DNA of 64,000 nt from NCBI GenBank assembly GCA_018389105.1, contig JACATO010000591.1, positions 1,846,501 through 1,910,500 of the forward strand, read 5' to 3'. The stretch's first letter is position 1. Every line of letters begins with the position of its first letter. The position numbers and the translations under genes were made by a program. This DNA is from Nautilus pompilius. Its lineage: Eukaryota; Mollusca; Cephalopoda; Nautilida; Nautilidae. Below are positions 4,140-39,424 of the stretch, one piece after another. The notes beneath the pieces were generated by a model. The model made no database searches. It was not told where the DNA came from and saw only the letters and a list, made by a program, of their open reading frames with translations.

Positions 4140-4231
4140 GGGACTTTCCCCGAGAATGACGACACATCTAAATAAAGCAACAGAAATCACGTGTAACAAA
4201 CCAGCCAATCGGAGCGCAAGCGCTGACGTCG
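4140..4231 (+). promoter_or_regulatory. TFE proximal promoter with four recognisable sites
   Basis: Within 150 bp upstream of the start codon lie a perfect kappaB-type decamer GGGACTTTCC (4140-4149), an E-box/M-box TCACGTG (CACGTG at 4188-4193), a CCAAT box (4205-4209) and a CRE-like TGACGTCG (4224-4231). No TATA box is evident. CACGTG is the binding site of the encoded family, so autoregulation is plausible, as described for TFEB. The kappaB and CRE-like sites suggest immune and cAMP/stress input. All are sequence matches only. Confidence 0.55.
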
Positions 4232-4286
4232 CGCGCGACAGCGAGAGAGAGAGAGAGACTCGCTCGAGTTGCGTAAAAAAGAAAAC

Positions 4287-4429
4287 ATGGATGAACTCTC
4301 CGATCTGTCCATGATAACTGGCATGCAAGACTCCGGAGTGGTGTTCGATTGGGAATTCCTGATGAGCCCAGAAGTCGAGACGGAGACAGAGCCGTTTTAC
4401 GAACTCAAGAGCAAGATCGTGGTCGGGAG
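4287..4429 (+). CDS. TFE/MITF: TFE exon 1 (start exon)
   Basis: ATG at 4287 in context AAAACATGG. It encodes 47 residues plus two bases of a split codon and ends at donor GTAAGA. The peptide contains MQDSGVV and, near its end, EPFYELKSK, matching the conserved SGIV...SFYELKS segment of TFE3/MITF-A first exons. The split AG pairs with T of exon 2, or with C of the candidate exon at 29053, and gives serine either way. A GA/GT-rich simple tract follows directly in the intron. Confidence 0.9.
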
Positions 4430-19400: not shown

Positions 19401-22400
19401 AAAGGTGCACAAGCAAGAGGGATGACCGTGGCCTTGAGAGGATTGTCAAGCAAAGCCGATTCAAGAACTTGGGGGGGGGGCTTCACAAGGAGTGGACTGA
19501 GGCTGGAGTCAGTGCATCAAGAACCACCACGCACAGACATGTCCAGGAAATGGGCTACAAGTGTCGCATTCCTAGTGTCAAGCCACTCCTGAACCAGAGA
19601 CAACGTCGGAAGTGTCTTACATGGGCTAAGGAGAAAAAGAACTGGACCGTTGCTCAGTGGTCCAAAGTCCTCTTTTCAGATGAAAGTAAATTTTGCATTT
19701 CATTTGGAAATCAAGGTCCCACAGTCTGGAGGAAGAGTGGAGAGGCACAGAATCCAAGTTGCTTGAAGTCCAGTGTGAAGTTTCCACAGTCAGTGATGAT
19801 TTGGGGTGCCATGTCATCAGCTGGTGTTGTTCCACTGTGTTTTATCAAGTCCAAAGTCAACGCAGCCGTCTACCAGGAGATTTTAGAGCACTTTATGCTT
19901 CCGTTTGCTGACAAGCTTTATGGAGATGCTGATTTCCTTTTCCAGCAGGACTTGGCACCTGCCCACGGTGTCAAAACTATTAGTAACTGGTTTGCTGACC
20001 ATGGTATTACTGTGCTTGATTGGCCAGCCAACTCACCTGACCTGAACCCCATAGATTCTCTATGAGGTATTGTCAAGAGGAAGATGAGAGACACCAGACC
20101 CAACAATACAGACCAGCTGAAGGTCGCTGACAAAGCAACCTGGGCTTCCATAACACCTCAGCAGTGCCACAGGCTGATTGCCTCCATGCCATGCTGCATT
20201 GATGCAGAGATTCATGCAAAAGGAGCCCCGACCAAGTATTGAGTGCACAAATGAACATACTTTTCAGAAGTTCGACATTTCTATATTATAAATCTTTTTT
20301 TTTTTTATTGATCTTATGAAATATTCTAATATTTTGATTTTCATGAGCTGTAAGCCGTAATCATCAATATTAAAACAAAAAAAGGCTTGAAATATTTTAC
20401 TTTATGTGTAATGAATCTAGAATATATGAAAGTTTCACTGTTTGAATTAAATTACGGAAAAAAAATGAACTCTTCCACGATATTCTAATTTTTTGAGATG
20501 CACCTGTATATCTCATAGTAAATTAAAAAATCATTAGTCTGATTGATTTTCTTTTTTGCACAATTTCAGTTTTCAATATGTGCATTACATTTTTGTTTGT
20601 TTTTTCCTTCATTCTGAAAAAAGACTACATTTGTTATCATGAGAGATTAATTAGATCTATGAGTATTAATCTGTGAAACTACTTTCAAGTTTATGTCTTA
20701 TTAGATGAATTTAGTTTGACTTTTTTTTCATTTTTATAATATATTATGTGCACTAAAGTAAATGAACATGACTCCATTGATGTGATCTAAGAGTTTTCAG
20801 ATTTAATTATTTAGAGAAATCATTTTAAAAACTTGTACTTAATGTGTATATTATTTGCTGATGATGATATGATGATAAAGATTTACAAAACATAGGTTAA
20901 TTAGTTGATTTAGTTACCCCTAATAAGGTGATGGGAAATGTCTCAACTAATTCTTTAATTCCTGTGAATAATATATCATCAGTAACTTTCATTTTATCCA
21001 TGTAATTTCAAGCAAGCTGTACATAAAACAGCAAAGAACTAGTCCATTGTAGGGGTGTGATGTTGTTTTGATTGCTGTTAAACAACATATGAAATTAGGA
21101 ATTTTCTGCTGGTTAAATTATTAATTTTTCTTTAGTTTGTTATGAAAATAACATTTTATAGATTACTAACCTAGTTAAGTGTAAAAATAAATTACAGGCA
21201 ATTTAGAAATGATTGTGTTGGTGTTTTTGTTGTTCTATTCTATTTTATTCTTTTTTTTATCTCTACCTAGAGTAGTTAAACATTCTGTTGAAATTCTTAA
21301 TTACAAAATTCATATAGTATTAAAATGATGAATTTGGCCCATACTCTGAATAAACATTCTAGCACTCATTGCCATAGTAATGTCAGTAGCTTATCCAAAA
21401 AGATTTGTGATGTCTCTATTGATCCAGGGGTTCCCCCAATCTGACTTAGAGATTTACCTGCTGTTTTGAAAATCAACACCTGTATTCTTCTTATATCTCC
21501 AAAGAAATTAGCCAATAAAGAAATATTTTAACTCTACAACAAAATCATACTAGATTATTTTGTTATAAAAATTATCCCCATGTTAAAATTGATATTTTAG
21601 TTTTTACAGGTGCTAAACTTGTAAACATTATTTGGAAAAACTTAGGGAAAAGAAATGTATTGTTGTAGGTTATTTTTTATATTGGAGTGAATTTAATAAT
21701 TTAAGTGTTATCTTACATCAGACCTGAAAAGTAAGAGGATTAAAATATAGAAAATAATGCTCTATGTACAAATTCTTGCCATAATAATTTGAACACCATA
21801 GATTTTACATACATGTCCATTTATTCTGTAATGCATTTACAATAACTGTTTTAAAAGTGATTTTCTAATATTTGGTATGAGCACCTTTTACATCATATCT
21901 TACCAATGGTGACCTGGTCCAGAGACTGCAGGTATTTCATCATTTGTTGCTGTGAATTCGTTCTTTGATTGTTTAGCCATATTTGTGTATCAGTATCATA
22001 GGTGTTCAGTGGGGTTCATATATCCATTCTTTGTGGAGCCCATGAAAACAACTGAAGTTCCATATCAGAAGCTGTAATGGTTTTGGATATATAATTTTTT
22101 CTCCGTTTTCCTGCAGGAAATCGTGATTACAGTTGAAGATCTCTCGATCAGATACAGGCAGGAGGGTATTTCAAAGATTGGATATGCCTCCATCATTGAA
22201 TGTATCTCTCTCTTTCCAATATAAAATAGCCACCTGCCACTGCTCCAAATGTCAAAGCTAAGAGCCATTGGGCTTGTTAATGGTCACTGCAAATTTTATT
22301 GACAACAAACAACTTTTCAGTGCAAATAATCATAGCGGCAGCATATCCAAAATATTTGTCAGTGGTGACATTTTCATTCCTAAACAAGTGAATTGTTTGA

Positions 22401-25400
22401 TGCCCTCTGATTAGGAGCAGTGAGGCATGTGGATTGTTGACCAGTTTCAAAATTGGCAGTTACCCAGTCTCAGGAGAATATGACAATGTCTGTCTTCCTT
22501 GGTATGGACCAATTTACAAATATATAGCACAGATATGTATCTAAATCTTTAAAAAGAGATATCAGTGCAAAGTTTTAGTTTAATGAAAATTATATTTAAA
22601 ATGTGTGACTTAGAAGAAATAATTAACATTTTTTAGAAAATTAAATAAATGTTGATAATGGGAATCAACTCAAGAAGCTCCAAGAATCTTTATTTTTAAT
22701 TTCCAAGTTTATACTCATTTGATATATCATTTTGGCAGTGCAGTATTCTGATGTTTAGACAGCTGGACTGCTAAGATCAAGGCTTTTTTCCTAAGATTGG
22801 TTTTTTTGGCTGGGGAAGCGATCACTCCCAACTCGAAGCCTCGGCTTCAACTAACATGGGTCGCTTACGCAGCCCTAACCCTGGTCGCTTCGGCGGCCAG
22901 TTACACGAGGTGCTTCGGTGCCTCAACACGGCCTTTTAGGCCTACACCAGGAGCTTGCTCCACACGGCTTCGGCCTCCTCCATTCCCTTCTCCCCTGAGA
23001 TAAACACACACACACACACACGAACTTTACACTCGCACCCACACGCATGCACCACACAAAGAGAAAGAAAAAAAAGATCAAGGGCCCAAGTCCAGTTCAC
23101 ACTGTGAACCAGATTAGTTTGGTGTGCCTCCTTGGCTATCTTGTTCTTCTTTACCTGGTGGCTTTATCGCTTTCCTCCTGTATCTAAAAATGAATGGTTC
23201 TAGCAAGGACTTTAAGGTAATGCTTTAATGTAACCATCTTGGAAGGGCCAGGCCTTTCACCAAGCACCATTAATTACCAGCCAAGAATTTAGTGCTGAGA
23301 CTTTTTGTCTCATCATTCTCATGGCAGCCTTTCAACATCGATAAATAGCTATATCATTTACCTGAAAATGAGATTAAAAACTCAATAACTTGAATTTAGC
23401 AGGTTGGTTGTTTTATTAGTTAAGTACTTTTTAATCTGAAAATCCATGATGTGGTTTTGTGGGAAGAGGAAGAGAAAAGTGAAAGGTTTCTATTAATTCA
23501 AAGTCTCCCTCTAGCTGTAAATAAGCAAGACTAGTTAGCTGGCTGTGGTGTCAGCTGTCTATTAGGGAAATACTTTTCTAAACTTTTGCACTACAGAGCT
23601 GAATTATGGCAGTTGGTCTTGGATTATCTCTCTAATTTGGAAAAAAAAAGCCACTTTGACTGAATTAATCTGTTAATTACTTCAGATTATTTCTGAAAAT
23701 TTTAATTTTGATTTTGGGGAGAAAATCTGCTTCTGTGAGGCATAATTAATAAGATGTTTCTTTGTGGAAAAGGGATAATTTGCCAGAATAGGGGGCTTTT
23801 CTGAGAGGAGGGACTGGGTAGATAGAGCCCCTTGGGTCACAGGGCCAGCTCAGACGGCAAAGGAAATTGCCATCAATTTAGTTTTTGCACTACATGACTT
23901 GATGGCTAGTGGAGAGAAATTAAAAACAAGAAAAAAAATAGGAACTTTCTTTGCTCAGTGATGGTGTTGAATTAATACTCCTCTCTGATCCATAGCAGGT
24001 GAGAAAGGTGAAAGCTGATAAATACAAAGGTAATTAGTGGTCACCTCACCTTGATCATCAGGTTGTTGATGAGAGAAGAAAAGAAAACACTCGCGCACAC
24101 ATGTATATACATACAAGCTGCACTTTTCTGCATGACCTGTTTTATAGCCATTATGATGGTGACATCTGAAATTAAAAGTAGATTCTTAGGACTAATTCAT
24201 CAACCTAAAACTGTCTTTGTTCACTCTGCTTCAGTACTTGTATTTGTTTATCTGGCAGCCATTTCTCTAAATTACCTTCTTCCCTTTTTAAAAATTCTTT
24301 TTATTTTAAATGTACTTCAGTATTCAAAAAAGGCTAAGCTACATACAAAACATGTATGTTTTTGGAATAATATGATAGAAACTTAAATCAAAAGTGAATG
24401 GAAAGGAGGTGGGCTGTGGAAGACATCTGAAAAGTTTAATTGACATGGGCCACAAGAGACTCCAAGAATCCAAGGAAGTCTTGTTTTGGGATGGGCAGGA
24501 CGCCATCAAGGAAGTTATTTTAGCTATACCTTGCAGCATTTTGTTAATCAAACAAATGAGGACAGTTTTTCTTATATTTCATATACATCAGATATTAGTT
24601 GGCACCACATTGTTGTTTATTCTTATATGAATTTTTAAAACATTTTCATATTTTAGAAGTTAATCTTCTCAAATACTTTCATAAAGAATCCAGACCCATT
24701 TTCTCTATCTTTCTCAGCATTATTGGTAATTTATTTTTTAAAGAAAATGGTAATCTGATTGTATCAAGGGCTAATAATGCTGGTAAAAGTTACTTACTAG
24801 GGCTAGAAGTGATTATGCACAGATACTAATAAAAGGCTAAATAGAAAAATAATTACATCGAAGAAAGCATGCATGACTTTTTAATAAACCAGAATATTTT
24901 CAGAATACTTTAATAGAATCCTCACTTCTATCGCCCATGATTTACTTTAGTTGAAATAAGTTGGTAACTTTAGGTCTTTTTCATCACCACCAAAGTAGTA
25001 CTGTAGACTGTTCTTGGTATTCAAATATTAATTTTTTATTTTATCAGCCTGTGTTAATTTTACATTGATGCCTGCCGGTCGTGGATCCATGGCCTGTTGA
25101 TTGATTTCTGACTGAGCCTCAGCCAGGCTCATCAAATAACACATACATCACTGAAAATTTAGTTCTTTACAATACAGCAAGAAGTCTAGATTTTTATCTT
25201 CTTTGGACCCTTTACTGTTATATACCTTTGAACACTTTCTGATAATTCTATCCCTAGGGCTTTAAGAAATTTCATTTGTTTCTTTACAAGCAACAAAATC
25301 ATCTATAATGGTTAAAAGGGAGAGACAGGCACTAATCTGTTGTCAATAAAAACTGTACTGAAAAATGTAATTTTGTGTTTGTTTTTTTTTTTTGTATAAC

Positions 25401-28400
25401 AAGATAAATTTGAAGTTCACATTTCTATATTATTATTATTGTTATTGTTGTTGTTTTAGTCCAAACAAGGAATTCAAACATGCCTCAATGACAAATCGCA
25501 CCAGTTTGAAGCAGCAGCTGATGAAACAGCAGATGGAAGAGCAGGCTAAGAAGGAGCAAGCTCTATCAGACTGTCTAAGATCTTCGTTAGACCAGTCCCA
25601 TGCCATCCTAGTCCCTCCAAGAGCTACACCAGTCACAAAAGAATTACCTGTTAAGATTCTTCAGGTAAACTTATTTATTCATATTCTTTCTGTGAATCAG
25701 AACTTGTAGAATTTAATAGCCAAATAAGATAGATAGGATGTTATTTTTTTAAAATCTCATCCCACTTGCTAGCATCCTGGTTAATGAGTTTATATATATA
25801 CATCCCAGTATACAATTACTAGTCTCTCTGAAAGCCAGTAGCATTTTTCAAGATAATAATGGAAATATTCTCTCTTAAGTTAATTTGTTGTGTTTTTTGT
25901 TTGTGGAAAAAATTTTATAAAGTTATTTTATGCTTATAAAAAATCATATTATAGGACTAAATAATGACTCTTGGTAATGTTTGTGTGGTAAAATTATAGT
26001 GGGAAATGAAGTTTTGACAAACTACAATTTCTTTAGTTTATTCCAAAAATATTGGTAATATAAAGATGTGTAACTTTGATGAGATTGTTTTTATGTAGCA
26101 CCATAATTTTGGAAATGTCACAAGTCAGCCATATTAGAGACATTTGCTTTGTTACAGTTAATTGCACAAGTCCTCTAAGGGTTTCCTGTGACAACGACGA
26201 TAACTTTATGGTCAAATTACACAAATTATTTATCATATGGTGTTAATTTTGAATGTTTCTAGAGTGGGGACTTCATGTGGCGGGAGGGAGGCCCATGAAA
26301 GAAAGAACGTGGTGTATCTGATCTACTCAAAGGTCATTCCATAAATGAATGATTGTGGACCAAAGGATAAAAGATTCGTGACAACTTGGCAGCTACAATA
26401 CAGTACTAACAGGTCTCAAACCTCTGGTAGGATCAGAGTAAATACTGGATTGTTCACAAAGTTGGGGTTAGCCAAATTGGTGATATAGAGAAACTCTGTC
26501 AGACCAGCTGAAGCAGCCTCTAATTACTGATAATTCCACCTCAAAGTCAGTGGTGGGATCCAGCCGGTTCGTGCGAACCTGTTCTCGGAATTTCATGAGT
26601 TCCGCGAACCAGTTGTTAGCCCTTAACTTATTTTATCATCAAAATATAAGGCATCAGTCCAATTATTCTTGCTACACCTCGCATGATTCATCTTGGTGTT
26701 AGAAATATCTACGGTAACCTTCTACGGCTTCAGAAAATAGATAAAACATCCCTCCCTTATTAGTGAGTTGGATGTTCTATAATTATTGCACAGCCACTAG
26801 CAGACCTGAGGGGTGTGGCCCACCTGCTCCCCCCCCATAGGTCAATAAGGGGCAGCCCCCCCATTAGTCTTCAAATATGAAATGAGAAAACTGAAGAATA
26901 CATAAAATCATAAAATTTATCAACAGTAATATGTACAGTTAATAATAATAGTAATAATAATTCAAAAAAACACAAACAATCAAACATGTATACACATAGA
27001 TATACCTTCGTATATAGAGTCTCTTCGATGTTATTATAGTGATTCTTTAACCATTGTTTGGACATCTTTTTAATTTGGGAAATAAACTGTAGAACGCGGC
27101 GGCCCAAAGATCATCCTTTGGACCTATATGGGGCCAAACCGACAACGTGCTTTTTGAGAGAGAGAGAACCGGTTGTTAAAATATTTGAACCCCACCACTG
27201 CTCAAAGTGTATTTTCTCCACAAATTTGAAAACAAGTATTCAGTGTCTTTCTGTTCTGCCGCAATAATTTATTATTCCTAATGAATTTCAAAATACTCCA
27301 GTTATTAAATACTGTTTGTTTAGTCACTTATTCCACTTTACTTTCTACAATTGTATGATTATAATTCTTATTATTAATTTTTTTTTTTGTCGGTCCTAGC
27401 CTGGACACATTTTGCTGCACTTTGTTTTTTTAAATTTTTGATCAGGAAAAGATGCTAGAGCAATTATAAGTAGTCCCCTTTTTTTTCTCCCTTCCAGCAA
27501 ATTATTGGAAAGAGGGATTTTATATTTCCTTGGGGGGAATACATTATGAATAATTACCTTAAAGTGAATATTTACAAAAACAACAACAACAGCAACAAAT
27601 AGAAAATTTTAGTCTACTTGAAAGAAACAACATAATCAGATTTTGTATTTTCACCTTAGAACATTTAGAACTAAGCAAGTTATAACAAGTTTGTTGACAG
27701 AGAAAGTATATGGTACTGTGAGCCATCTGGCACATTACATGACCAACCAGTCTTGTTGATTTTGGTCACTTGATTGTAGATCTATAATGTAACCTAAGAG
27801 CAAGCACAGGTATTCCAACATGAATGCTACTGAACTATAAGCTGAGAAGATCACTCACCCACTAACAACAACAACAATAACAGAATTATCTTATAATTTT
27901 CCATGCATACATGCTTTACTTTGTGTGGTTGCTAAGTGTATTTCAAATTCTAGTTAGGGTGATTAAGATGAGAAATTATATATTTCTAGATAAGATAGTA
28001 ATAATATCTGTGGTTACTTACAGCTCTGTATTGCTTAGAAATTTGTATTTATTTCTCAAAGAATATCTGGAGAAGTGAGTTTACATTCTCCTTGTAAATG
28101 TAACAGATGTTCTGATCACTTTTACTCTACTTTAATAGCGTAATAACTAGGTGCTTACCAATTTTAAAAGTGGGCTCCTTCAGAAGTGCATGCCAAGAAC
28201 GAGGTAGAATTCTTCTGTAGTTAGTACACGTTATATGTCGTAAAAGAAACAAGCGACTACTGTAAAAGTTCAAAACAAAAACTTACAAAATTGGCAGTAA
28301 CAACAACAACAAGGAAAAAAAAAGCAACAACTTGTTTCGAGTTTGTTTGGAGAATAAAAAGAAGAGGAAGGAAAGAGCCTGGCAGTAGTTTGTAACCATT

Positions 28401-31400
28401 GTGGTTTGAAGTAGCTGGAGATAATTTCTAGTCACTGCCTATTTCTTTGTCTGTGAAAAAATTACTTCTTGTATTTTGCCTAAGCGGGGGTTGTCTAGTA
28501 CTCCGGCTATTATCACTGTTGATATTATCGGCACTTGCAGTAGAGGGGTTATTTCCATGTTGTGTGCTGCTGACTATAATCATGGGATCATATTTACGTC
28601 TCCGTGGGGACTGTCAGGCCTTTTGAAATGTTACAATTACTGCTGAGGCTAAGCTGTTAGCACACAATGGCTTGAACTAATAAGCGAAGCTTAATGATGC
28701 TGCATCACTTGTCAGCTCCACTTCTACCTTGCAGGCCTGAGTTGAAAATCACAATACCATTGTCTAAATGTGTTATTAAAATAGCTTCTGTATTTAAACT
28801 TACATGTAAGTGTTAAAATTTCACCGCACCCTGGGAATGGCTATTCAGGTGCAGTGAGAGTGAAAGAAGTTAGTGGCATACGGTTACGGTTTCAGTCTAC
28901 CTGGGGCCTCGAGGTTGCGGCTACAGATATTGTGGGGGGGTACTATTGAGCATTGTTCCTGGATCAGCGTGTGCCTCACAATAATGGCATCTTGGGAGGT
29001 GTTAATAAAAATGAAAGCTGACTAAAGTCACTGAACACTTTCCCCTGTGCAGCACAGACGGTCAGCTGCAGGACCAGCCTGGCATGATGGTAAACCACAG
29101 CTCACATGACTATGGATACACATACTACTACAATCAGAACTGGCCCTATCCCAGGGACTCTGCTCAGTACTCTTGCTACTCCAGTTGTCAGTATGCACCG
29201 TGGACAGAGCCCTTTGTAGGTTCCTTATTTTACTTTTTTAATATTTAACAATGGAAGTATTTTAACTATCAACATTGCACACCTTATACCAAGAAGCAAT
29301 TAAAGCTTTCTTTAAATGTTAAATAGTAAAAAAAAGGGTTGAAATTATTAGAGAGTAATTTATTCTTTAAAATCTTCGTATTGTATATTTAATTCTGGAC
29401 TGATTTTATTATTTAGATTTTTGTTGTTTTTTTCTTTTCTGTTTACCTTTTATGAAAAATTGCAGTATCAACTTTCAGAAATTGAGGTTTTTATTCCAGG
29501 ACAGAACACTGGTGTGTGGGGTTATTTTTAAGGCATAGCGATGAAAATTTCTAGAAATCAGGATTAGGAAATAGGATGAATCTGATAGAAGGTGGACTGT
29601 TTTTGTGTGTGTGGTGACAGAGCAAAGTTGTGAAAAGACACCTTGATTATTTATTCAGGTTGCTAACTGTTGGGTATATCTTAAGTAATCTGTCTTCAGC
29701 ATCTCGATGTTCTACTATTTGGTCTGTTTATGAGCATTCAATTCGTAATTTATAAAGTTTACTTGCATATTTTCTTTTTACATAAACATTAGACATTTTT
29801 AAAAATTAAAAAATAAAAAGTTATTTGTGTATTTAAAATTTTTTTTGTCTTTTTCTCAATATTGATACCTGTGTGTGGCATTTTGATTTTGATACACACT
29901 TCTGGAGAGTCTGTTTAAAACATTATATTTCTGCATTAGGATGTAATCATTAGATTATTCAGGTTTTTAAGAAAATTGAAATCACCTTAATGAGAAATTT
30001 AAAATCATAAATGTTATGAATATTTAAAAGAAGAATTATATTAGTACATAAAGGAGAGGTGGCTGATTTTTCTTTTTAAGCCTAACATTAGGCTTGATAC
30101 CACAAAGTTACTTTTCAGTATTTGGATTAATGATTGTAAAACAAAGTTGTTCTGTGTATTCAGTGTTTGTTGATCAATTCAAGAACCAGGTACAGGGACA
30201 ATTCTTTAATCTGTGCACCTTGTATAAGCTGTTACTGTAAACACTATACAGTATTATGCTATGTAAAGACATGTGTGTTTCATGATATTTAAAATACTTA
30301 ATCTTAAGTGAATATATTTGTGTTTTTAGATATTAACTGGGATATATAAGTAACTAGTGTATAAATTAAATGTATATGCATTTGGAATTAAAAGGTTAAA
30401 TCTTTGAAGTGAACTCCAAAGTTTTAATAGGAAGTATGTGTGTCAGTATAAATTTTATACCTCAGAATCTCTTTAGGTATGTGGGTTTAAAATCTTTTTT
30501 CTGCATTTAACAAAAGGCATAATAATTAGATGTATACAAGTTTACAAAAGTACTATACCAGAGAAGTGCAGAATTTTACTGATATCATTGTATACTTTGT
30601 GTTATGTGATATAAAAGAACAGTAACAAATGTTTTTTTTCTTTAAAAAGTAACTACTGAGCTTTTCCAACACTTAGAACTGTTCTAATACTTAAGAAATT
30701 TCTTCCTAAAGTCAGTTCTAAGTACAAACATAGAAAAATGCTGTATTTTCTATAGAATTTGTAGTTACCTGTGTAGAATTTGCTCGATTTGTTAGAGGTA
30801 AATTGTGTGTTGAGTTATATTAATATAAATTAGAGCTAAGGTGATGAGTTAGCATGAGCAGACTTGCTGTTAGTCGTTGTGGCTTGGTTCTCGCCACCCT
30901 CACTAATGTTGGAGAATCAGAATACAAACATTTTTAGTAGAATCTGGAAGGTAGTCTGATGCACAATGTTTAACTTCGTTTCAAATTGGAAAGGTTTGTT
31001 GTGATCAACCTTAATTGTCATTTTGCATACATATTAATCATGAGTTAGATTTGATCAAATATGACTCAGCTATATCTATGAAAAAGTTATAAATAATAAG
31101 AAAGGGAAATCAATTTAAATCTTTATTTTGTTTATCTTATTTCTGGTTAGTATCTCTCTCTTTTTCTCAAAAATTGTCTAGCTACCTACCAGTTTTCTCC
31201 CACATCTAAAAAAAATTAAAGGTTTTAGTAGGGACTTTCTGTACCAAATGTAGGACTAATGTCTGTACCCTGCCACTTGCTTTGGGAAACTGACACCAAG
31301 GGGTTTACTCTGGCGGATGCCTTGGGTGCTGACATCAGCAACTGAATTTGAAGAAGAAAGATTTAATAAGCATCTGAAAGAAAAAAAAATCAGATAACTA

Positions 31401-34400
31401 ACTAATATTACAGCACAAATTAAAATATTATTGAAGTGCAGTATATATACAAAATATTTTCTAAACCCAGCATATTTGTTCAGATGAAAATAGTTTAAGA
31501 TTGAAATTAGTCTTTCCTCCTTTTAATAATATTATTGTTTTATTTTATAACAATTATAAATAATGTAGTTTAAAAATAAATTGACAAAACTGTTTTAGAA
31601 TATTGTATTTTGGGCTTTTTTTTTTTTTTTTTCTTTCTGCATAGTTATTTATTGCTCCTTAGTATAGTGGATTACCTGACATTGAAACTATGTTGTTAAT
31701 TAAATATTTGTTTTTAGATCATGCACATATACATGCACTTTCTCTTTCGCTGACTACTGATAATTTTGTTTCCATTACAGGTGAAAACCCAGCTGGAACA
31801 TCCAACAAAGTATCACATCCAACAGAGTCAGAAGAGACAAATCCAACTGTTCCTCACAGAATCTGATGGAGCCCGAGTCACAAATGCTCAGTCTTTACCA
31901 AATATGCTTAACACTGCATCACTGGGTCCCGGGGAGACTCTGCACCCTGGGAGTGCCCCTGCTGACCCAGACAGCCCCATACACATGGGGAATGGTGGCA
32001 CCAATGGTATATCTGAGGTAGGACAGCATTTTATCATACCAGTTTAGAATCATCCACAGACTTCTGATAAAATACTCTTACCAAGCCGGATATGTGAAAG
32101 TCAGAAGTATTGCTTTACACATTCAAACCATTTTCTGCAATTCACTCCTTTTGCATTGTGAAAAAAATCAATATACCAGGGACATTGATCAGCATTTAGT
32201 CAAGCACTTAACATTTCCAGTCTAGCATTTAAAAATTCCTCACTTCTGTTTTTGGTTATATCTTTAAAAAAGAATAAAAAGAATCCTTAGATAGTAGATA
32301 GTTTAAATTGTTGTAGGAAAAGTTCATTGAAGCATCACATTATAGTTTATTTAAGAGAAGTATCTTATATATCCTACCTGAGCCATTCAAGATTTGGATG
32401 GAAATATTTGCTTTTACTCGAATATATGTTCAATTAATTTTGTATTAAAATTTCTGTCATCAGTCAACAGTGATTCAGAGACAAGTTTTAAGGATTTTCT
32501 CTTTTTGTCATTAGAATTACCTAATAATGTGCTCTGGTCTGTAAATCTCAGCTATTCTGTTGGTGAAATCCTGTTTTCATGTACCTCAAATTTCACAGCT
32601 AAAATCTATTGAGATTTATTGCATTTGTGGATAACTAGTTTTAGCTTTCAGCTTTTCAAGTTAATAATTAATAAATTTATATTAGATGGGTTTGCAATAC
32701 ATAATATTGTTGGCATGGTGATTATGTGTGTTCTAAAATATAGTTACTAACACATGAAAGGATAACATCCATTTCCTAAAATGCTTAAAGATGCCAAAAT
32801 CTGCCCTTACAAATATTTCAGACAACTTGCAATTTATATTCATTTGAAGATAAGCAAAACAAAAAGAAATGTTTTAAAAAGTGTCTAAATGTAATTATCT
32901 AATTAGAAATGTAAAATTTTGAAAGTTTCTTAATGTATAAATTATACACAAAAAATAGATATTTCTTAGATTTTTTGTTGGAGAATTAAAAGGCATTAAT
33001 TTGGACTGTAAATACCTGTATGCATACTCCTAATGTTTGTAAAAAATCTTCCTTCAAGGTTGATCACTTGCTTGGAGACATGATCAGCCTGGAGTCTGTA
33101 GATGCCACAATAGACAATGATCTCAACCTCATAGAACCAACCCTCAACCAGATGTCTGCAACAGTAAGTTATAAGTTGGCTATTAACTCTTTTTAGACCA
33201 TGAATTCCACACACAATTTTACCTCTCTTACATGGATTTTTATTTGAATAGTGTAAAAGACAATCATTTACTGCCATAAATTGAAATCATTTTTACTCTT
33301 AGTAATTATATTTGAAGTGTAAATCACTGACCACAAATTGTCTTCTGAATTTGGATAACCTACATTTGCTAGTACAAGTGATTGATTTACTGAATTAACT
33401 GATACACAGATAGGAGGATGGATAGCTCACTTTATTTTGAAGCATGTATTAGAACCTGCTTGGTCCCTGTAATTAGATGATGTACTCCATTTTTTATTCA
33501 GTCAAGGAAAGTATAGTGTTATTTGTGTTTAAACAAATATCTATCAGCTAAGCAAATGTGAGAATTAAGATGCTACTGAAATGTAAATAACACACTATAG
33601 ACCATCACAAAGGGAGCTGCTTGTAGAATTACCATCTCCCAAATATTTTTCTGACAGGTGAGACACTGTTAATTACATGTTGTCCACCCAGCACAGCCAG
33701 CTGCCATAAATAAGATGCATCATCTGTGAGACAAAGACTGATATTATAACTCCCCTTTGTACCTTGTTTTTGGTGTTAAGCCAATACAATAAATTACCTG
33801 ATAATCAACATGAAAGACTGTAACAGCATTACAGGGTCACTAGGTATAGTTATTACCTGTGTCCCTCTATGAAAATCCTTCAGGTGAATTCCTCAAAAAT
33901 GATACTTATTGTGTTTAGCACCTTTCATCTCCTTTTTTGAGAGAGAGTTTTAAACAGACAGATTAAGCCCCCTACTCATTGTTTGGAGGAATAGTTCTAA
34001 GTACATTGATACTTGATTATCTGGAAAGCAAGTACAGGAACTAATCGAAGTTATCTTTATAGACAGGATGTTTTTAAGCATGAATCATTGTTCTGAAAAA
34101 GACTCATCACTAGATTTCATCTTCATGCTGAATCAGAAATGTTTCTGTTTTACTTTTCATGAGCCAAGAAATCATTATAAACACACACCAGGCCTACCAG
34201 CACCTAGCCAGCCCTAAGTTGTTTTATATAGTGCTATTTAAAATTTTTAGTTTTCTTTTAAAATTTCTGAATACTTTCTAGCTTTTATTTTTCCTACAAA
34301 GAAAATATCTAACCAGATATTAACTGTAGTTATATTTAGATTAATCATAAATCTTTATATCTGCAAGTGCTTTAAATGGGGAACTTTGTACTTTTTAAAT

Positions 34401-37400
34401 ATATAATAGACCCTATACTCTCTTTATCTTTAAATGTTTTATTGATTTTTAATTTTATTTTTATTTTTTTACTATGACATTTGAAACAGTCCATATACTA
34501 TATCACTCATCAGCAGAGCTCACTGTTCATGTTGTCACAGAGCCAACATCTATTTAATTAAGTTTTAGTAGATGTCAGTAGAGTTTGAGCAAGGTCCTTT
34601 GGATAGAGATAAATACCTATCAGTTCAAACTTCAGATTGATTAATGGGTCTACTATTGGCAGCTTTATTCCACTTATCCACAGTTTTATAACACTAAACT
34701 GGTGTGAATTGGTTTCCTTCTCAACTTCTTCTCCACAGGAAATAACTTGCTATTCTACATGGAATATTTTTCCTTTAATCATGAGGGTACAACTTTACAA
34801 GCCATGGTGGATTTTACACATTATTTTGTCTGAGCAGAATACTTGGAAAACTTCTACACCTTAACTATCTTTCTATCTACTTTTATTGTGGCAAAGAATG
34901 AAAGGTTTCTTTTTGTAGAATGAGTAGGTATCATGAATCTCACTTGTGTTGGGTCTGAAAACATTTATGTTTACATGTACAATTACTTGTGTACGAAAGT
35001 CACATGGCTAGCCAACCGTGCTAGAAAAGAATTGCTGTACACCAGACCAATCATCCCTGTTTTAGGGACCTGTAATCAAACTAATTAGCTTTTTAAAAAA
35101 ATCAGGGGATGTATAATGTACTGACAAAAAAAAAAACTGTAATGGTTTTATTACAATAGCATGCAATTGAAGTTACTCTACTGATAGCCATCTGAGATTT
35201 TTACAAATAAGAGATTATCAGTTTTGAAATTCAGGGGAATACTGATAGGTTACCTTCACCCTTTATTACATTTTAGAGGAGGCTCTCTCTAAAACTTATA
35301 CATAGGATAAAATACAAATTTTGAAACAAAACAGATTAATTGATTTTGTGACTGGTTTTTGTTTTAAATAATCTGAAGAAAATAATTGATATGGTTTTTA
35401 TTTTTCAATGTAGATTTTCTCTGGTAGTTTGTTAACCATTTAAAATAATGATGATTGGTTTTTAACTTACTAGTAGAACCAAGCTAAATAAAATATTAAT
35501 TTTACTAGCATTACATAAACATGTTTTTAATACCCTTCACTGATACCTGTTTGGAGTACTTTGGTTTCTTGTCACCCATCCTTACCAGCCAACCCCGTGG
35601 ATGTCCTCAAAAATGAAGAGTTCTAGCAGGGACTTTCGCTCCAAACCAAGTAACTTGGGCAGTGTACAACAATAATGACCTACTTATTTAAAGCAAATCT
35701 GCCAATTACTGTAGGAAAAACCAATTTTTCCTCCTATTATCTACCTCTTCTTATCTGTGATGGATGTTTTCTCTTTATTTTCCCTTCAGCTTCCACAGGC
35801 ACCAAACCTGATGAGTCTGTACGACCAGAGGTCAGACAGCAGCAGCTCATCTTGTCCAGCAACGTTTCGAGCTAAAGTTGATCCGCCACCTTTTCTTAAC
35901 CAGGATGATGCACGGAATTGGGCTAAAGAACGACAGAAGAAAGACAATCACAACCTAAGTAGGTTTAACCATACTAATAGAGAGCTATTATGATCATATC
36001 GTATGACTCTACCTTGCTGATGACTGGTTAATATAAACAGTCTCTCTTTTTAGTTTGACTTAGACTGAACAAAATACAAAAGTGGCCAAAATGACTACAT
36101 CATCTGAAATAAGTCTGATTTTAAAATTTTTTTTAAGGGTAATTATTACAATGAAACACAGTGTTTAATAAGCATTTTTGTTTGAGATGTCATTATTTTG
36201 TTAGAATAATATTTTTAGTCAAAAAAATGTTGCATATGTACATTTACTGAAGTTTACTGCTGCTGCTTTGATACTCTACAGATACATCTCCACAAGGACG
36301 CTACTACATTAGAGGGACATGTCTAGTACAGAGGCCCTGTGAATACCAAAGCACAGCATAATTGCTCTAATATGTAATAATGTATTTTTGCATTTCACAT
36401 CATGGACAGTCAAATACTGTATTTTGTTTAAAAACTAAGTTGTGCAATAATTTTGTCCATTAATGTACATATACATTTTAGAAGATATTTCTTTCTTGGG
36501 TCATGTGTGAATATTAAAATCAGTTGTTGCTTTTAGAAGTTGACATGTTTTCAAAAACTGTTAATTTTTTTATTTCTATTTATTTTTCCTTATTACTTGA
36601 GTTTTTGAACGGTAATAACTTTGTGTATTAGTAGCCTTTTGTTTTTTTGAAAATCTGGATTACAAGAATCTCTCTCTTTCAGTTGAAAGGCGCCGACGAT
36701 TCAACATTAATGATCGGATAAAGGAATTAGGAACACTACTGCCCAAAATCAGTGATCCGTAAGTAAATTGTGGATGTTAACTTATCGTCTGCTAAGACAA
36801 ACTGGAGGAGTTGAGTTAAACAAATTTCCCTGTTATAATAAATTTAAAAATTACCATCTTGTGTAGGTCTGAAATAGCTTTACTTTTTCTGCAGCCTTTT
36901 TTAAAACTGTCAATTAACTGCTTACCAAGAACCTTTCTAAATGAAAGCTGGGGGGTTTTTTGTTGCCTAGTCTACCCCCCCCTTTTTCTTTTAACACTGT
37001 GCGTTTTGCTTTACTTCTGCATACACCTGGAATTTGTGGGCATACCTCTACTCTAGCATCAGCTTGCTCCCACACTCCAACATCAAACTTCACTGATTAT
37101 GCTGGTAGATATTTGCCTGAAAGATGTCTCCCCTTGAAAGCAATCATTCTCCCACCATTTGGTTAATCAGCAAATGTTTTTTCTCATCTGTCTCCCATTT
37201 AGTTCAGCACTAAATCAATTGTGAATTATTAAGATCAGCAAAGTTTTCAGTTTCCACTTCATTTAAATCGCTTTCATCAAATGTAACTAAAGACTTTCCT
37301 CTCTTTACCATGTTGACAACTTGGCTATCTCAAGAAAATGCTATATTTTTTTTCAGTTTAGATATTCAATTAAAATAGCTTGGCCACTAAATAAACAATA

Positions 37401-39424
37401 GTTTCATTATTTTCTGTTGGTTAGAAAAGCTGACATCACACCAAAGGTTAATTATCAGGTTAAATCTTGCTTGATATTTTGATGCATTTCTATGGTTACT
37501 GTGGTTGATGCATAGCTGTATCAAGCAAAATTTTTGGTGTGACTTCCTTGACCAATGTAGAGAATAGTGAAGTCATTACCTGAAAGAGTTTTTTACCCGC
37601 TAACTGGAGAATGTCAGTTTTTCAGAGATTAACATATTATCTTGCTTTTGGTGGTTTTGACAACTCTTCAGTATAATTCAGGAAATTATCTTTATATCAT
37701 CATATATTTAGAAAACTGCAGGTTTTCAAGCAATAACATGAAGAAACTTAAAACAGTTCAGCTTCAGCGTGGTTCATATTTGTCTTGTTTACACCATAAT
37801 GTACATAATAAACATCATCATCACAGTGTAGCTATTTTATATATTTTGGTTTATGAGCTGCAGTATGAGTTGGTGGTATTTATTTACAGTTCTAGTGTTT
37901 GTGCAGTGGATCATCTGGATCAGCTTTAACATTGAGTTTTTAGAGAAAGTTCAGCATAGATTTACTATAATGTTTCTAGGTCTTAAGCATTTGGAATATT
38001 CCGAATGATAAATAACCATGAGTTTTGAGTGAACAGACAGACAAATTTTTCAGCTATCTGCGTTTACTATGAGTCAGAGTTTCAAATTAGCCAACAGGTT
38101 ACATATCAGAACAGATGCAGTTAGTAGTTAATCCCTTTAAGAAACACATTGGTTGACTTTTTCTCTAGGGTGCTTGGATAAACCTTGTCTCCTTGTAACT
38201 GCTAGACTACAGCACTGGAAGAGTGAGCTTTGTTCACTGGTCCGTGATGTTTTGTTATCCACAAGTGGCTGTGACTGCTGGAACTGTAGCCAGTATATCA
38301 TGCATTCTAACTTAATCCTTACTGATGCTTTCACACAGCTGCATTTGTCTGTCTGTCTGTGTGCGCATAGTAAAAAAATCACTTGTTCTGTTGTGTGTAG
38401 GTCAGCAGTAGACACTTGGATAAGCACCTAGAGGGATGAAAATAAGTAAAACACCACACCAAGTCACGGTTAATGTTCATGCTAAGTATTTATTTGCAAA
38501 TGAAACTCTGTATTTCCATTTTATTTATGATCTTTACCAAATGCTTAAATGAGTTTTCTGATTTTCAGTAATTAGGAAGCTACGGTAGAATATTTTATTC
38601 AGATTTGTCATAAACAGTCTGGTGAAGTTTTTCTTTGTTTACTGCTGTATAGTTGTATTTTTCAGTTTTAGTATTTCTTGTATTTATGTGAAATATTTTC
38701 AGAGATGCGAGACAAAACAAAGGCTCTATCTTAAAGGCATCTGTTGACTACATTCGAAAGCTGAAGAAAGACCAAGAAAAAATGAGATGTTTTGAAGAGA
38801 AACACAAACTGCTGGAAGTGTCAAACAGGAAAATGCTGCTTAGGATTCAAGTAAGAGCACACATTTTATACACTGATGAATTATCGTCAATCCACATCCC
38901 TTTAGTCCTTTGCATGTGCAAAACTTTGTTTTCTAAATACATTTGTCTGCAGCGACAACATGGTGTGCAGACCAATTCTGAAAGATTAGCAAGGGTGAGT
39001 CAAATGATATACTCACCCGTTTGAGGTGTTAGAATTTAACTACAAAAGTATAATTTAGCAGTGATTATTTTGCTCGCATTTTCACCCCCAACATTGCTGT
39101 TGTTTAAGTTTTTTTTTTTCCAGTTCAACTTTATTAACATAATTAAAAATATTCTTCATGTTTCAGCATCTGGAGTTGATAATGAAAGCTCATGGACTTT
39201 CTTCTGGACTACCAGAAAAAAGTATCTGTCTCTCAACCATGGTACAACCTGACTCAATCACAGCACCTTCAGATTCTTTGCTCGACCAGTCTAACAGCCT
39301 GACAACCAACTACAACCTAATGGATGTAATTATGGATGACTGTTCACCCGTCAGTGGGGATCCAATGATGTCTTCAGCACCAGTCAGTCCAACAATGGAT
39401 GATGATATTCCCGAGTCATTATGA
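4287..39424 (+). CDS. TFE/MITF: MITF/TFE-family bHLH-leucine-zipper transcription factor, complete, nine exons
   Basis: Exons: 4287-4429, 25460-25664, 31781-32017, 33059-33163, 35790-35958, 36683-36758, 38703-38850, 38953-38994, 39167-39424. All introns are GT-AG, phases agree, and the total is 1383 nt, giving 460 residues. Family members are nuclear-cytoplasmic shuttling factors that bind CACGTG/M-box sites and drive lysosome, autophagy, stress or pigment programmes; mTORC1 holds them in the cytosol. Visible in order: N-terminal FYELKS motif (exon 1); Rag-binding type motif [11 protein letters not shown] from about residue 63; conserved HPTKYHIQQ block at about 124; SP site at Ser181; activation-domain block DMISLES in exon 4; SSSCPA context at Ser251, matching the 14-3-3 site of TFEB; basic region [17 protein letters not shown] from about 276, then helix-loop-helix and zipper; acidic C-terminus. 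The vertebrate serine-rich C-terminal cluster is not present. Invertebrates usually have one such gene, so assignment to MITF, TFEB or TFE3 individually is not meaningful. Splicing is inferred without transcript data. Confidence 0.95.
4432..4473. repeat. GA/GT simple tract at start of TFE intron 1
   Basis: (GA)n followed by (GT)n directly after the exon 1 donor. Frames across it are not genes. Confidence 0.8.
4822..4899. repeat. Short palindromic element, copy 1
   Basis: 78 bp. The left arm GGGATGTTCAAACGAAGTCC pairs with the right arm GGGTTTCATTTGAACGTCCC; the centre is GTAGCATCGCCGTAATGGTA. Same architecture as the copy at 5029. Confidence 0.8.
5029..5099. repeat. Short palindromic element, copy 2
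   Basis: 71 bp with almost perfect arms: GACGTTCAAATGAAACCCGG on the left and GAGTTTCATTTGAACGTC on the right. The spacer contains GTGGTATCCAG. It would fold into a long hairpin. Confidence 0.85.
6625..6972. repeat. Imperfect inverted repeat, possible fold-back element
   Basis: TTCTGTCAAAGACAAGAA near 6644 is matched on the other strand by TTCTGTCAAAGCCAAGAA near 6950. The wider arms of about 55 bp (TTGATCA... and TGTTGTTCA.../TTTGTTCAAC) also agree in part. The interior of about 230 bp shows no gene. Target duplication not identified. Confidence 0.4.
8413..8432. repeat. (GT)n microsatellite
   Basis: Short GT run in TFE intron 1. Confidence 0.8.
12000..12948 (-). mobile_element. Degenerate Tc1-like remnant, internally deleted
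   Basis: Ends are related inverted repeats: TTAATAATTTGGTCACC near 12011 and, on the other strand, TTAATTTGGCTACC near 12937; TA dinucleotides flank. On the - strand the ORF at 12517-12251 contains [12 protein letters not shown] and TKHTK, like Tc1 MVWG...DPKHTSK. In another frame just downstream [19 protein letters not shown] matches the PxxPDLNPIEHLWxxL motif, which shows at least one frameshift. Much of the N-terminal half is missing or unreadable. Confidence 0.7.
13318..14546 (+). pseudogene. Possible Tigger/CENP-B-like transposase relic split by the retrocopy
   Basis: From ATG 13318 the frame reads [13 protein letters not shown], then [13 protein letters not shown], like the basic start of pogo/Tigger and jerky-type transposases (MSGKR...KKRKAITLE). 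The frame is then interrupted by the retrocopy at 13440-14210. Beyond it an 89-codon ORF (14277-14546) may be a further piece, but I cannot align it. Similarity is short. Confidence 0.35.
13440..14210 (-). mobile_element. Polyadenylated retrocopy with 11-bp target-site duplication
   Basis: ATGAAAAACTT occurs at 13429-13439 and again at 14211-14221. Between them is about 770 bp that starts with a T run (13438-13453) preceded on the - strand by AATAAA (13473-13468). This is a reverse-orientation cDNA insertion with poly(A) tail made by LINE machinery. GC content is higher than in the flanks, and no protein is recognised, so it may be a 3' UTR retrocopy or an unrecognised SINE-like unit. Confidence 0.8.
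14550..17984 (+). other. TFE intron 1, middle part
   Basis: Non-coding, AT-rich. The frame at 17086-17409 (107 codons) has no recognisable motif and no splice context, so it is not called as a gene. Confidence 0.6.
17985..18356 (+). repeat. tRNA-derived SINE, copy A (full length)
   Basis: The head has an A-box-like segment CTAGTAGTTAGATTATA and a B-box-like GAGGTTGACTCC. The body has TTGCATCTAAAAAATGAAGA, a second part GTCTTCTCAGATAT, then TCCTACACTATAAACAAA, and a (TTA)n tail near 18330. Copy B at 56518 shares head, body and tail order. Confidence 0.7.
18949..20506 (+). mobile_element. Tc1-like DNA transposon, nearly complete, IR/DR type
   Basis: 1558 bp flanked by TA on both sides (18947-18948 and 20507-20508). 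The outer inverted repeats start [AG/CA]GGTGCATCTCAAAAAAT and match for about 40 bp. Inner direct copies of the motif (TCTCAAAATATTAGAATATT near 19131, and its counterpart near 20316) make long IR/DR ends of about 200 bp, as in Sleeping Beauty type elements. It encodes one transposase reading frame, now broken. Confidence 0.93.
19235..20242 (+). pseudogene. Tc1 transposase, inactivated (nonsense and catalytic change)
   Basis: Reading frame of 335 codons from ATG 19235 to TGA 20240, the usual size for Tc1 transposases. An in-frame TGA at 20063-20065 cuts it after residue 276, at a place where the family has Trp (NLWG). N-terminal paired-like helix-turn-helix region (about 1-110), then the DD34E core: Asp149 (FSDESKF), Asp239 (QQDLAPAH), and position 274 in NPID, where Asp stands at the expected Glu with the correct 34-residue spacing. 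A G-run at about 19470 adds glycines. It therefore cannot encode a working enzyme as it stands. Confidence 0.93.
21775..22540 (-). mobile_element. Possible further Tc1-like remnant, heavily decayed
   Basis: The left edge reads TGCCATAATAATTTGAACACC, similar to the terminal repeat of the remnant at 12000. The stretch near 22000 (GTGTTCAGTGGGGTTCATAT) resembles reverse-strand Tc1 sequence. The right edge is not clear and no long frame survives. Confidence 0.35.
22831..22976. repeat. GC-rich array of six short hairpins, several with TTCG loops
   Basis: Consecutive perfect or wobble-paired palindromes: GAAGCC-TC-GGCTTC (22835-22848), CTGGTCGC-TTCG-GCGGCCAG (22881-22900), GAGGTGC-TTCG-GTGCCTC (22907-22924), GGCCT-TTT-AGGCC (22930-22942), GGAGC-TT-GCTCC (22950-22961), GGC-TTCG-GCC (22966-22975). 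The surrounding intron is AT-rich. A weak 68-codon frame runs through it (22797-23003) but resembles nothing I know. Confidence 0.65.
23085..23270 (+). repeat. SINE body fragment, copy C
   Basis: Contains TTTCCTCCTGTATCTAAAAA, then TGGTTCTAGCAAGGACTTTA, the same body block as copies A, D and E; the head is replaced by GC-rich and CA-repeat sequence. Confidence 0.5.
23271..25459 (+). other. TFE intron 1, last part, with possible conserved non-coding block
   Basis: 23400-24010 is less biased in composition and rich in TAATTA/ATTAAT-type homeodomain motifs (for example TAATTAATAAG near 23744), as often seen in enhancers. The 111-codon frame at 24051-24386 is hydrophobic and unrecognised. No gene supported. 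Confidence 0.35.
25460..25664 (+). CDS. TFE/MITF: TFE exon 2 (Rag-binding N-terminal segment)
   Basis: Acceptor TTGTTTTAG, donor GTAAAC, 69 residues completed in frame. It contains [17 protein letters not shown], which corresponds to the vertebrate exon carrying the (S)xxLRxQLMREQ motif by which MITF/TFEB bind RagC/RagA on lysosomes. It ends with LPVKILQ, comparable to VPMEVLK before the next conserved exon. An internal ATG (SMTNRTS) corresponds to the start of TFEB-type isoforms and could serve as an alternative start. Confidence 0.93.
26548..27200. mobile_element. Non-autonomous hAT element with perfect 8-bp target duplication
   Basis: 653 bp with terminal inverted repeats CAGTGGTGGG...CCACCACTG, each followed by a GGTT.../AACCGGTT-containing subterminal part. 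The flanks are exact copies of CTCAAAGT (26540-26547 and 27201-27208), the 8-bp duplication that defines hAT insertions. No transposase frame. It lies in TFE intron 2. The termini resemble hAT families that I recall as widespread in animals (OposCharlie type), which needs a search. Confidence 0.92.
27209..29052 (+). other. TFE intron 2 upstream of the alternative exon
   Basis: Mostly AT-rich. From about 28440 to 29040 the composition becomes more balanced with fewer simple tracts, compatible with a regulatory region or an alternative promoter for the exon at 29053. No ORF or repeat recognised there. Confidence 0.3.
29053..29215 (+). CDS. TFE/MITF: Candidate alternative TFE exon, phase-equivalent to exon 2
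   Basis: Pyrimidine tract and acceptor TTTCCCCTGTGCAG, 163 nt open in one frame, then donor GTAGGT. The entry phase (one base, C) and exit phase (0) are the same as those of exon 2, so exon 1 can splice to it (AG+C = Ser) and it can splice to exon 3 in frame. It also holds two adjacent ATG codons (29084 and 29087), so it could be an alternative first exon. The peptide is rich in Tyr, Ser, Gln and aromatic residues ([18 protein letters not shown], then [15 protein letters not shown]) and lacks the Rag-binding motif. In vertebrates the MITF-M first exon sits at the same place, directly before the PTKYHIQQ exon. Coding status is inferred from the open frame and signals. Confidence 0.6.
29216..31780 (+). 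other. TFE intron between alternative exon and exon 3
   Basis: AT-rich, no gene seen; SINE body fragment D at about 31185-31350. Confidence 0.6.
31185..31350 (+). repeat. SINE body fragment, copy D
   Basis: TTTTCTCCCACATCTAAAAA, then AGGTTTTAGTAGGGACTTTC matches the shared SINE body. It lies in TFE intron 2. Confidence 0.45.
31781..32017 (+). CDS. TFE/MITF: TFE exon 3 (PTKYHIQQ block, SP site)
   Basis: Acceptor TTTCCATTACAG, donor GTAGGA, exactly 79 codons. It begins [20 protein letters not shown], the strongly conserved block that opens vertebrate MITF exon 2. The later Pro/Gly-rich part contains [10 protein letters not shown]. This aligns with PNSPMAML, the ERK/mTOR phosphosite region (TFEB Ser142), and keeps the Ser-Pro pair (Ser181 here). 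Confidence 0.95.
33059..33163 (+). CDS. TFE/MITF: TFE exon 4 (acidic activation segment)
   Basis: Acceptor CTTCCTTCAAG, donor GTAAGT, exactly 35 codons. The peptide starts [16 protein letters not shown] and aligns with the IDDVIDDIISLES core of the MITF/TFE activation domain, the segment that recruits p300/CBP in vertebrates. It is followed by an acidic stretch ([11 protein letters not shown]). Confidence 0.93.
35565..35670 (+). repeat. SINE body fragment, copy E
   Basis: ACCAGCCAACCCCGTGGATG, then AAAAATGAAGAGTTCTAGCA and GGGACTTTCGCTCC. This is the best-preserved copy of the body block. It lies in TFE intron 4. Confidence 0.5.
35790..35958 (+). CDS. TFE/MITF: TFE exon 5 (14-3-3 site context and start of basic region)
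   Basis: Acceptor TTTCCCTTCAG, donor GTAGGT, 56 codons plus one base. [12 protein letters not shown] matches the SSSCPA context around TFEB Ser211/MITF Ser173, the mTORC1-dependent 14-3-3 site. It closes with [12 protein letters not shown], the first half of the DNA-binding basic region, identical to vertebrate TFEB over this stretch as I recall it. Confidence 0.95.
36683..36758 (+). CDS. TFE/MITF: TFE exon 6 (basic region and helix 1)
   Basis: Acceptor TCTCTCTTTCAG, donor GTAAGT, 76 nt. The split codon gives Ile, then [20 protein letters not shown]. The Glu and Arg residues are those that read CACGTG. The sequence is almost invariant across the family. Confidence 0.97.
38703..38850 (+). CDS. 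TFE/MITF: TFE exon 7 (loop, helix 2 and first zipper heptads)
   Basis: Acceptor AAATATTTTCAG, donor GTAAGA, 148 nt. It encodes [20 protein letters not shown], the loop and helix 2, then the first part of the leucine zipper, ending [14 protein letters not shown]. Vertebrate proteins continue at this point directly with ELE(M/L)QA..HGL, which is encoded here by exon 9, not exon 8. Confidence 0.96.
38953..38994 (+). CDS. TFE/MITF: TFE exon 8, 42-nt microexon, probably a cassette
   Basis: Acceptor ATTTGTCTGCAG and donor GTGAGT frame exactly 14 codons ([14 protein letters not shown]) with phase 0 at both ends, only 102 nt after exon 7. Including it lengthens the zipper by 14 residues, two heptads, between LLRIQ and HLEL. 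Skipping it restores the vertebrate-like order [16 protein letters not shown]. Alternative use is inferred from this alignment; the exon itself is supported by both splice sites. Confidence 0.7.
39167..39424 (+). CDS. TFE/MITF: TFE exon 9 (end of zipper, C-terminal region, stop)
   Basis: Acceptor TTCATGTTTCAG, 85 codons and TGA at 39422. [18 protein letters not shown] aligns with ELEMQARVHGLP, the end of the zipper. [20 protein letters not shown] resembles the LEDILMDD...DPLLSSVSP C-terminal activation motif of vertebrates. The chain ends in acidic DDDIPESL, without the SSRRSS(F/M)SMEE cluster of vertebrate proteins. Confidence 0.93.
   Translation, partial: HLELIMKAHGLSSGLPEKSICLSTMVQPDSITAPSDSLLDQSNSLTTNYNLMDVIMDDCSPVSGDPMMSSAPVSPTMDDDIPESL

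Follow-up and report, generated by a model that had tools for sequence, protein, structure and literature searches.

Can a single invertebrate gene of the TFE family yield two proteins, one held under lysosomal Rag control and the other free of it? Through Rag binding, TFEB and MITF proteins couple lysosome genes to nutrients, and in vertebrates melanocytes express the isoform MITF-M, from which the Rag-binding segment is missing. The locus that raises this question lies in a 64,000-nucleotide stretch of Nautilus pompilius DNA (the window), itself part of a 3.79-Mb contig in a genome of 727.6 Mb. There, an original prediction had placed a candidate alternative exon of 163 nt and 54 codons (29053..29215, + strand; hereafter X) inside a TFE gene and had proposed that it could replace the exon encoding the Rag-binding segment.

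By its matches to PF15951 (1.1e-25) and to the bHLH domain PF00010 (2.1e-14), the host gene is a member of the MiT/TFE family. When rebuilt, its nine coding exons (E1 to E9), all on the + strand, join without interruption to encode 460 residues. The first coding exon, E1 (4287..4429), starts with MDELSD and is left in phase 2; E2 (25460..25664, 205 nt) encodes the Rag-clamp helix, with entry phase 2 and exit phase 0; and E3 (31781..32017), entered in phase 0, is the PTKYHIQQ exon that would be common to both isoforms. The end of E1 at 4429 and the start of E3 at 31781, on which the original prediction relied, hold in this reconstruction. Downstream, E4 (33059..33163) was found among the listed open frames, and E5 (35790..35958, donor GTAGGT) carries SSSSSCPA, which we take to be the equivalent of the TFEB Ser211 site, together with the start of the basic region. 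The bHLH domain is encoded by E6 (36683..36758) and completed by E7 (38703..38850), which presumably also holds the start of the zipper. The short E8 (38953..38994) lies 3' of the bHLH, and the last coding exon, E9 (39167..39424), ends with the stop TGA at 39422-39424. A genome search with the E3 peptide returned a single match, so that by this search the TFE gene is single-copy, and it found no second TFE gene.

Several other features were noted along the way. Vertebrate TFEB and TFE3 have a serine-rich C-terminal tail, which the protein end encoded by E9 seems to lack. The first TFE intron holds a Tc1/mariner-like transposase frame of 288 codons (19199-20065, +; PF13358 4.3e-11, PF01498 3.5e-8). 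Beyond the gene, an exon of an ATP synthase gamma subunit gene, presumably the mitochondrial one, lies at 50683-50910 on the - strand (PF00231 2.6e-13). Further on, 51263-52800 (+) contains open frames of 114, 147 and 195 codons, the first with a sub-threshold zf-AD match (0.00013) and the third with none; these frames are possibly a transposon-derived gene.

The Rag clamp of this protein is encoded by E2. First, the PF15951 match begins in E2 at profile position 1. Second, the joined E2 and E3 peptide matched TFEB chain 7ux2_P in the PDB over residues 1-152 (E 4.1e-8), and the E2 helix aligns to the first residues of human TFEB, MASRIGLRMQLMREQ, as found in the Rag complex entries (7ux2_P). 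According to PMC9931586, helix 1 of TFEB (residues 2-18) sits in the Rag cleft of the megacomplex through R4, I5, L7, R8, L11 and Q15, and residues 76-83 make a second Rag contact. Among the clamp contacts, R4, L7, L11 and Q15 are kept in E2, while R8 is replaced by K and I5 by T; E3 aligns with the second Rag-contact segment.

X has the sequence parts of a putative internal exon. Its acceptor, ...ctttcccctgtgcag immediately before CACAG at 29053, scores 6.0 and is as strong as had been claimed, coming third after E3 (7.7) and E5 (7.4) among the nine acceptors of the gene. Reading from 29054 gives the 54 open codons that had been announced, whereas reading from 29053 itself meets a stop in frame. 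The donor GTAGGT is present after 29215, where CCCTTT is followed by gtaggt, and so is the tandem ATG (ATGATG, 29084..29089, starting at 29084 and 29087), from whose two starts 44 or 43 codons are counted. The second ATG has an A at -3 and a G at +4. Both X and E3 are preceded by a CTGAC, at distances of 32 and 28 nt respectively, and no TGCATG, a splicing-regulator motif, occurs within 500 nt of X.

The frame makes the relation between E2 and X tighter than the original prediction had it. As that prediction stated, X has the same phases as E2 (entry 2, exit 0), and both E1-E2-E3 and E1-X-E3 stay open to the end of the protein. The lengths of the two exons, 205 and 163 nt, are both 1 mod 3. 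When E1 is joined directly to E3, without E2 or X, the product ends at IVVGR followed by a stop; when E2 and X are both included (E1-E2-X), a stop is reached 18 codons into X. Thus the frame permits exactly one of the two, because skipping both or including both hits a stop. This two-way exclusion is an addition to what had been claimed before.

How easily could such an arrangement occur by chance? Splice sites were scored with general matrices rather than with ones trained on this species. Over the 27.4 kb between E1 and E3 (4430-31780), only 21 of the 1,594 AG sites score at least as well as the X acceptor, that is one per 1,302 bases. In contrast, the X donor, at -1.7, is the lowest of nine (the other eight range from 0.3 to 7.0), and 271 of the 1,534 GT sites in the same interval are as good or better. 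X thus combines a strong acceptor with a weak donor. GTAGGT is also used by the E5 donor at 35958, which scores 0.5, and on the exon side both sites are poor (TAA for E5, TTT for the X donor at 29215). The weak donor, ordinary among GT sites, is the first point in favour of reading X as no exon at all, namely as a GC-rich intronic stretch (about 28822-29224) in which chance placed an open frame between a good acceptor and an ordinary GT. We regard this as a serious possibility, somewhat short of an even one.

Candidate counts bear on this reading in both directions. With strict criteria, whose thresholds were taken post hoc from X itself, X is the sole sense candidate in the 27.4 kb and the antisense strand holds none. 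Local dinucleotide shuffles yielded at least one candidate in 3.5% of cases (n = 200), and in 0.25% when the E2-E3 intron alone was considered (n = 400); these small percentages flatter X because the thresholds came from X. With two looser criteria on summed scores, there were 2 sense candidates (X and 24062-24353) and 1-2 antisense ones, and the shuffles often satisfied them: 22% and 58.5% held at least one candidate (2.75% and 11.5% for the E2-E3 intron). The second phase-compatible candidate by summed scores, at 24062-24353 (+), is probably due to chance; its stop-free frame has a negative codon score (-0.42 bit per codon). The strict criterion was also applied to both strands of 26 other 10-kb stretches of the same genome (520,000 bases), where 5 acceptors passed it. 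However, none is left once a GC contrast, also set from X, is required as well, so that X has no equal in 520,000 strand-bases. Together with phases that match at both ends, this speaks against a chance assembly. The anatomy of X is unusual, yet not conclusive.

Base composition separates the two sides of X. Its GC content is 0.52, whereas the flanking introns have 0.36 (upstream) and 0.28 (downstream); windows with a GC content at least as high make up 0.27% of the 5,628 windows in the E2-E3 intron and 2.4% of those in intron 1. On the 3' side, the GC content falls sharply at the donor, with the best change-point at 29224, 9 nt away; the 3' edge of X looks like an exon edge, and both this fall and the place of X at the top of its intron's GC range count against X being mere intron. 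On the 5' side, the best change-point is at 28821, about 230 nt before the acceptor, so that the GC plateau begins elsewhere than at the acceptor, as expected if X were no exon. The 5' side resembles either an unmarked first exon or a GC-rich stretch into which X falls by chance.

This 5' side raises the second alternative, in which X would serve solely as an alternative first exon, as exon 1M does in vertebrate MITF-M, with transcription starting near 28800-29050, translation opening at ATGATG, splicing to E3, and the acceptor unused. We consider this unlikely. In its favour, the GC-rich stretch from 28821 continues into X (its part 28822..29052, +, could be a 5' untranslated region if X also served as a first exon) and the ATGATG stands in a good context; TATTTAAA is found upstream at 28791, a weak hint because it occurs 10 times in 27 kb. 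As signs of a promoter belonging to X, both the GC plateau and TATTTAAA are weak. In addition, the position of X matches that of MITF exon 1M. Against it, a good acceptor lying 31 nt upstream of the ATG, and in phase with E1, would be a coincidence, given that acceptors of this quality come at one per 1,302 bases. Moreover, the CpG observed/expected ratio is low (0.31-0.35), compared with 1.04 in the E1 region (4000-4700), and three upstream ATGs lie between 28821 and 29084. X itself is CpG-depleted (0.19), as are E2 (0.20) and E3 (0.13).

The coding signal of X does not decide between these readings. An open frame of 54 codons alone arises in 8.3% of 20,000 dinucleotide shuffles of X, as would suit an intronic origin. 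We trained a codon model on the nine other exons of the gene, which is a small set, and X is unusual in make-up, with 9 Tyr among its 54 codons. Open frames from elsewhere in the genome stayed out of the training: 324 kb (260 kb plus the window) held 86 with 120 codons or more, and many of the 70 that were listed looked like transposon or simple-repeat frames. With this small model, the Tyr-rich X scores 0.03 bit per codon, its other forward frames score 0.02 and 0.02, and one stop-free antisense frame, at 0.05, exceeds it. The frame of X is thus not singled out, which again fits the absence of an exon. For comparison, the exons of the gene, each left out in turn, score 0.08-0.37 bit per codon, except E7 (-0.11). 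Among stop-free intron windows, 3.3% of 1,575 score at least as well as X, and 33% of the 132 with a GC content of at least 0.45.

Searches for relatives of X returned little. In the genome, X matched once by DNA and once by protein, counts that are lower bounds, the DNA search skipping very common words; on these single matches we rejected a high-copy repeat or transposon as the identity of X. The upstream stretch 28400-29052 had no match in the window or in six further genome stretches. X alone had no match in Pfam, and its 5 matches in the PDB were at chance level (best E 0.58). Pattern matches in the prokaryotic contigs of GTDB (38) and in viral contigs (23) included 0 confirmed relatives in either set.

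As a third alternative, X could be part not of TFE but of an independent small transcript or gene inside the TFE intron, for example the 54-codon ORF at 29084-29248. The frame of X does stay open past the donor as far as 29248, and an ATTAAA lies 3' of it at 29299. Even so, we hold this to be very improbable: X has one genome match and lacks any family match, the GC change-point at 29224 is nearer to the donor (9 nt) than to the stop (24 nt), and the phases of X fit those of the TFE gene.

Taking the alternatives together, we slightly favour the view that X is a real alternative TFE exon, which takes the place of E2 and so does away with the Rag clamp. It would enter the transcript in one of two ways: spliced between E1 and E3 as an internal exon (E1-X-E3), or as a first exon whose transcript starts locally and whose translation opens at ATGATG. 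Our confidences overlap, since this explanation covers both modes of use, the first-exon alternative among them. Between the modes, we lean towards the internal exon over a pure first exon, because a pure first exon would leave it to coincidence that so good an acceptor has the fitting position and phase. Of the proposed replacement of the Rag-binding exon, the in-frame fit of the swap and, if X is used, the removal of the clamp stand, while the donor, the worst of nine, weighs against it.

What would the swap do to the protein? In the E1-X-E3 product, PF15951 is matched only from profile position 61 onwards, no longer from position 1, and PF00010 is kept. The predicted isoform would thus be without the Rag clamp, because the match starts at position 61. 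If X is used, the isoform is predicted to keep the second Rag-contact segment, the Ser211-like site and the bHLH domain, and both X products would do without the helix by which TFEB is held in the RagA-RagC cleft. In its place, the Tyr-rich segment would form a new N-terminal part, probably unstructured. According to PMC9931586, TFEB carrying I5D, L7D/R8D or M9D is constitutively nuclear and defective in Ser211 phosphorylation. By analogy with these helix mutants, the X protein would be neither recruited to lysosomes in a Rag-dependent way nor phosphorylated by mTORC1, and may be mostly nuclear and Rag-independent.

Vertebrate MITF exon 1M carries an ATG and about a dozen codons, and exon 2 of that gene starts at the PTKYHIQQ segment. 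The likeness that had been drawn to exon 1M holds for place: X lies between the Rag-binding exon E2 and the PTKYHIQQ exon E3, and joins E3 in frame. Just as exon 1M skips the Rag-binding exon of its gene, X would join E3 and skip E2, and like exon 1M it has an ATG of its own. This likeness is one of position and predicted product. Exon 1M differs from X in being a first exon driven by its own promoter, whereas X encodes 54 codons and is preceded by a good acceptor in phase with E1.

X can also be set beside two other kinds of exons. Classic mutually exclusive exons are duplicated exons. E2 and X resemble such cassettes in their equal phases, in their lengths of 1 mod 3 and in that only one of them is usable without a frameshift, but compared by eye they bear no obvious sequence relation. 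Hybrid internal/first exons also exist as a class, and X resembles them in that an acceptor is combined with an ATG and a possible upstream start.

The literature documents the vertebrate case. According to PMC7470386, MITF-M, whose exon 1M is spliced straight onto exon 2 so that the Rag-binding exon 1B1b is left out, is constitutively nuclear. The accessible parts of two family reviews name alternative transcription starts for MITF, TFEB and TFEC (PMC9363479) and amino termini that differ between human MITF isoforms (PMC7815692), and in these parts neither describes a Rag-free invertebrate isoform. No invertebrate Rag-free exon swap appears in the titles and abstract openings of the MITF-isoform literature matches listed, which leaves its absence from print unproven.

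It had further been suggested that, if X is real, the isoform logic of MITF would be older than vertebrates or would have evolved twice, a claim for which one genome is too narrow a basis. In its fullest form, our proposal is that one invertebrate TFE locus may yield both a Rag-controlled and a Rag-free factor by a frame-enforced swap, driven by splicing and a local start both, with a Tyr-rich segment replacing the clamp; in that case, the split between MITF-A and MITF-M would be matched outside vertebrates by a counterpart that is either older or of independent origin. We put this forward tentatively, with distinctly less than even confidence. If true, it would suggest that the release of TFE from lysosomal control is an older solution or one that evolved repeatedly, and this locus would offer a simple system for testing what a Rag-free TFE is for.
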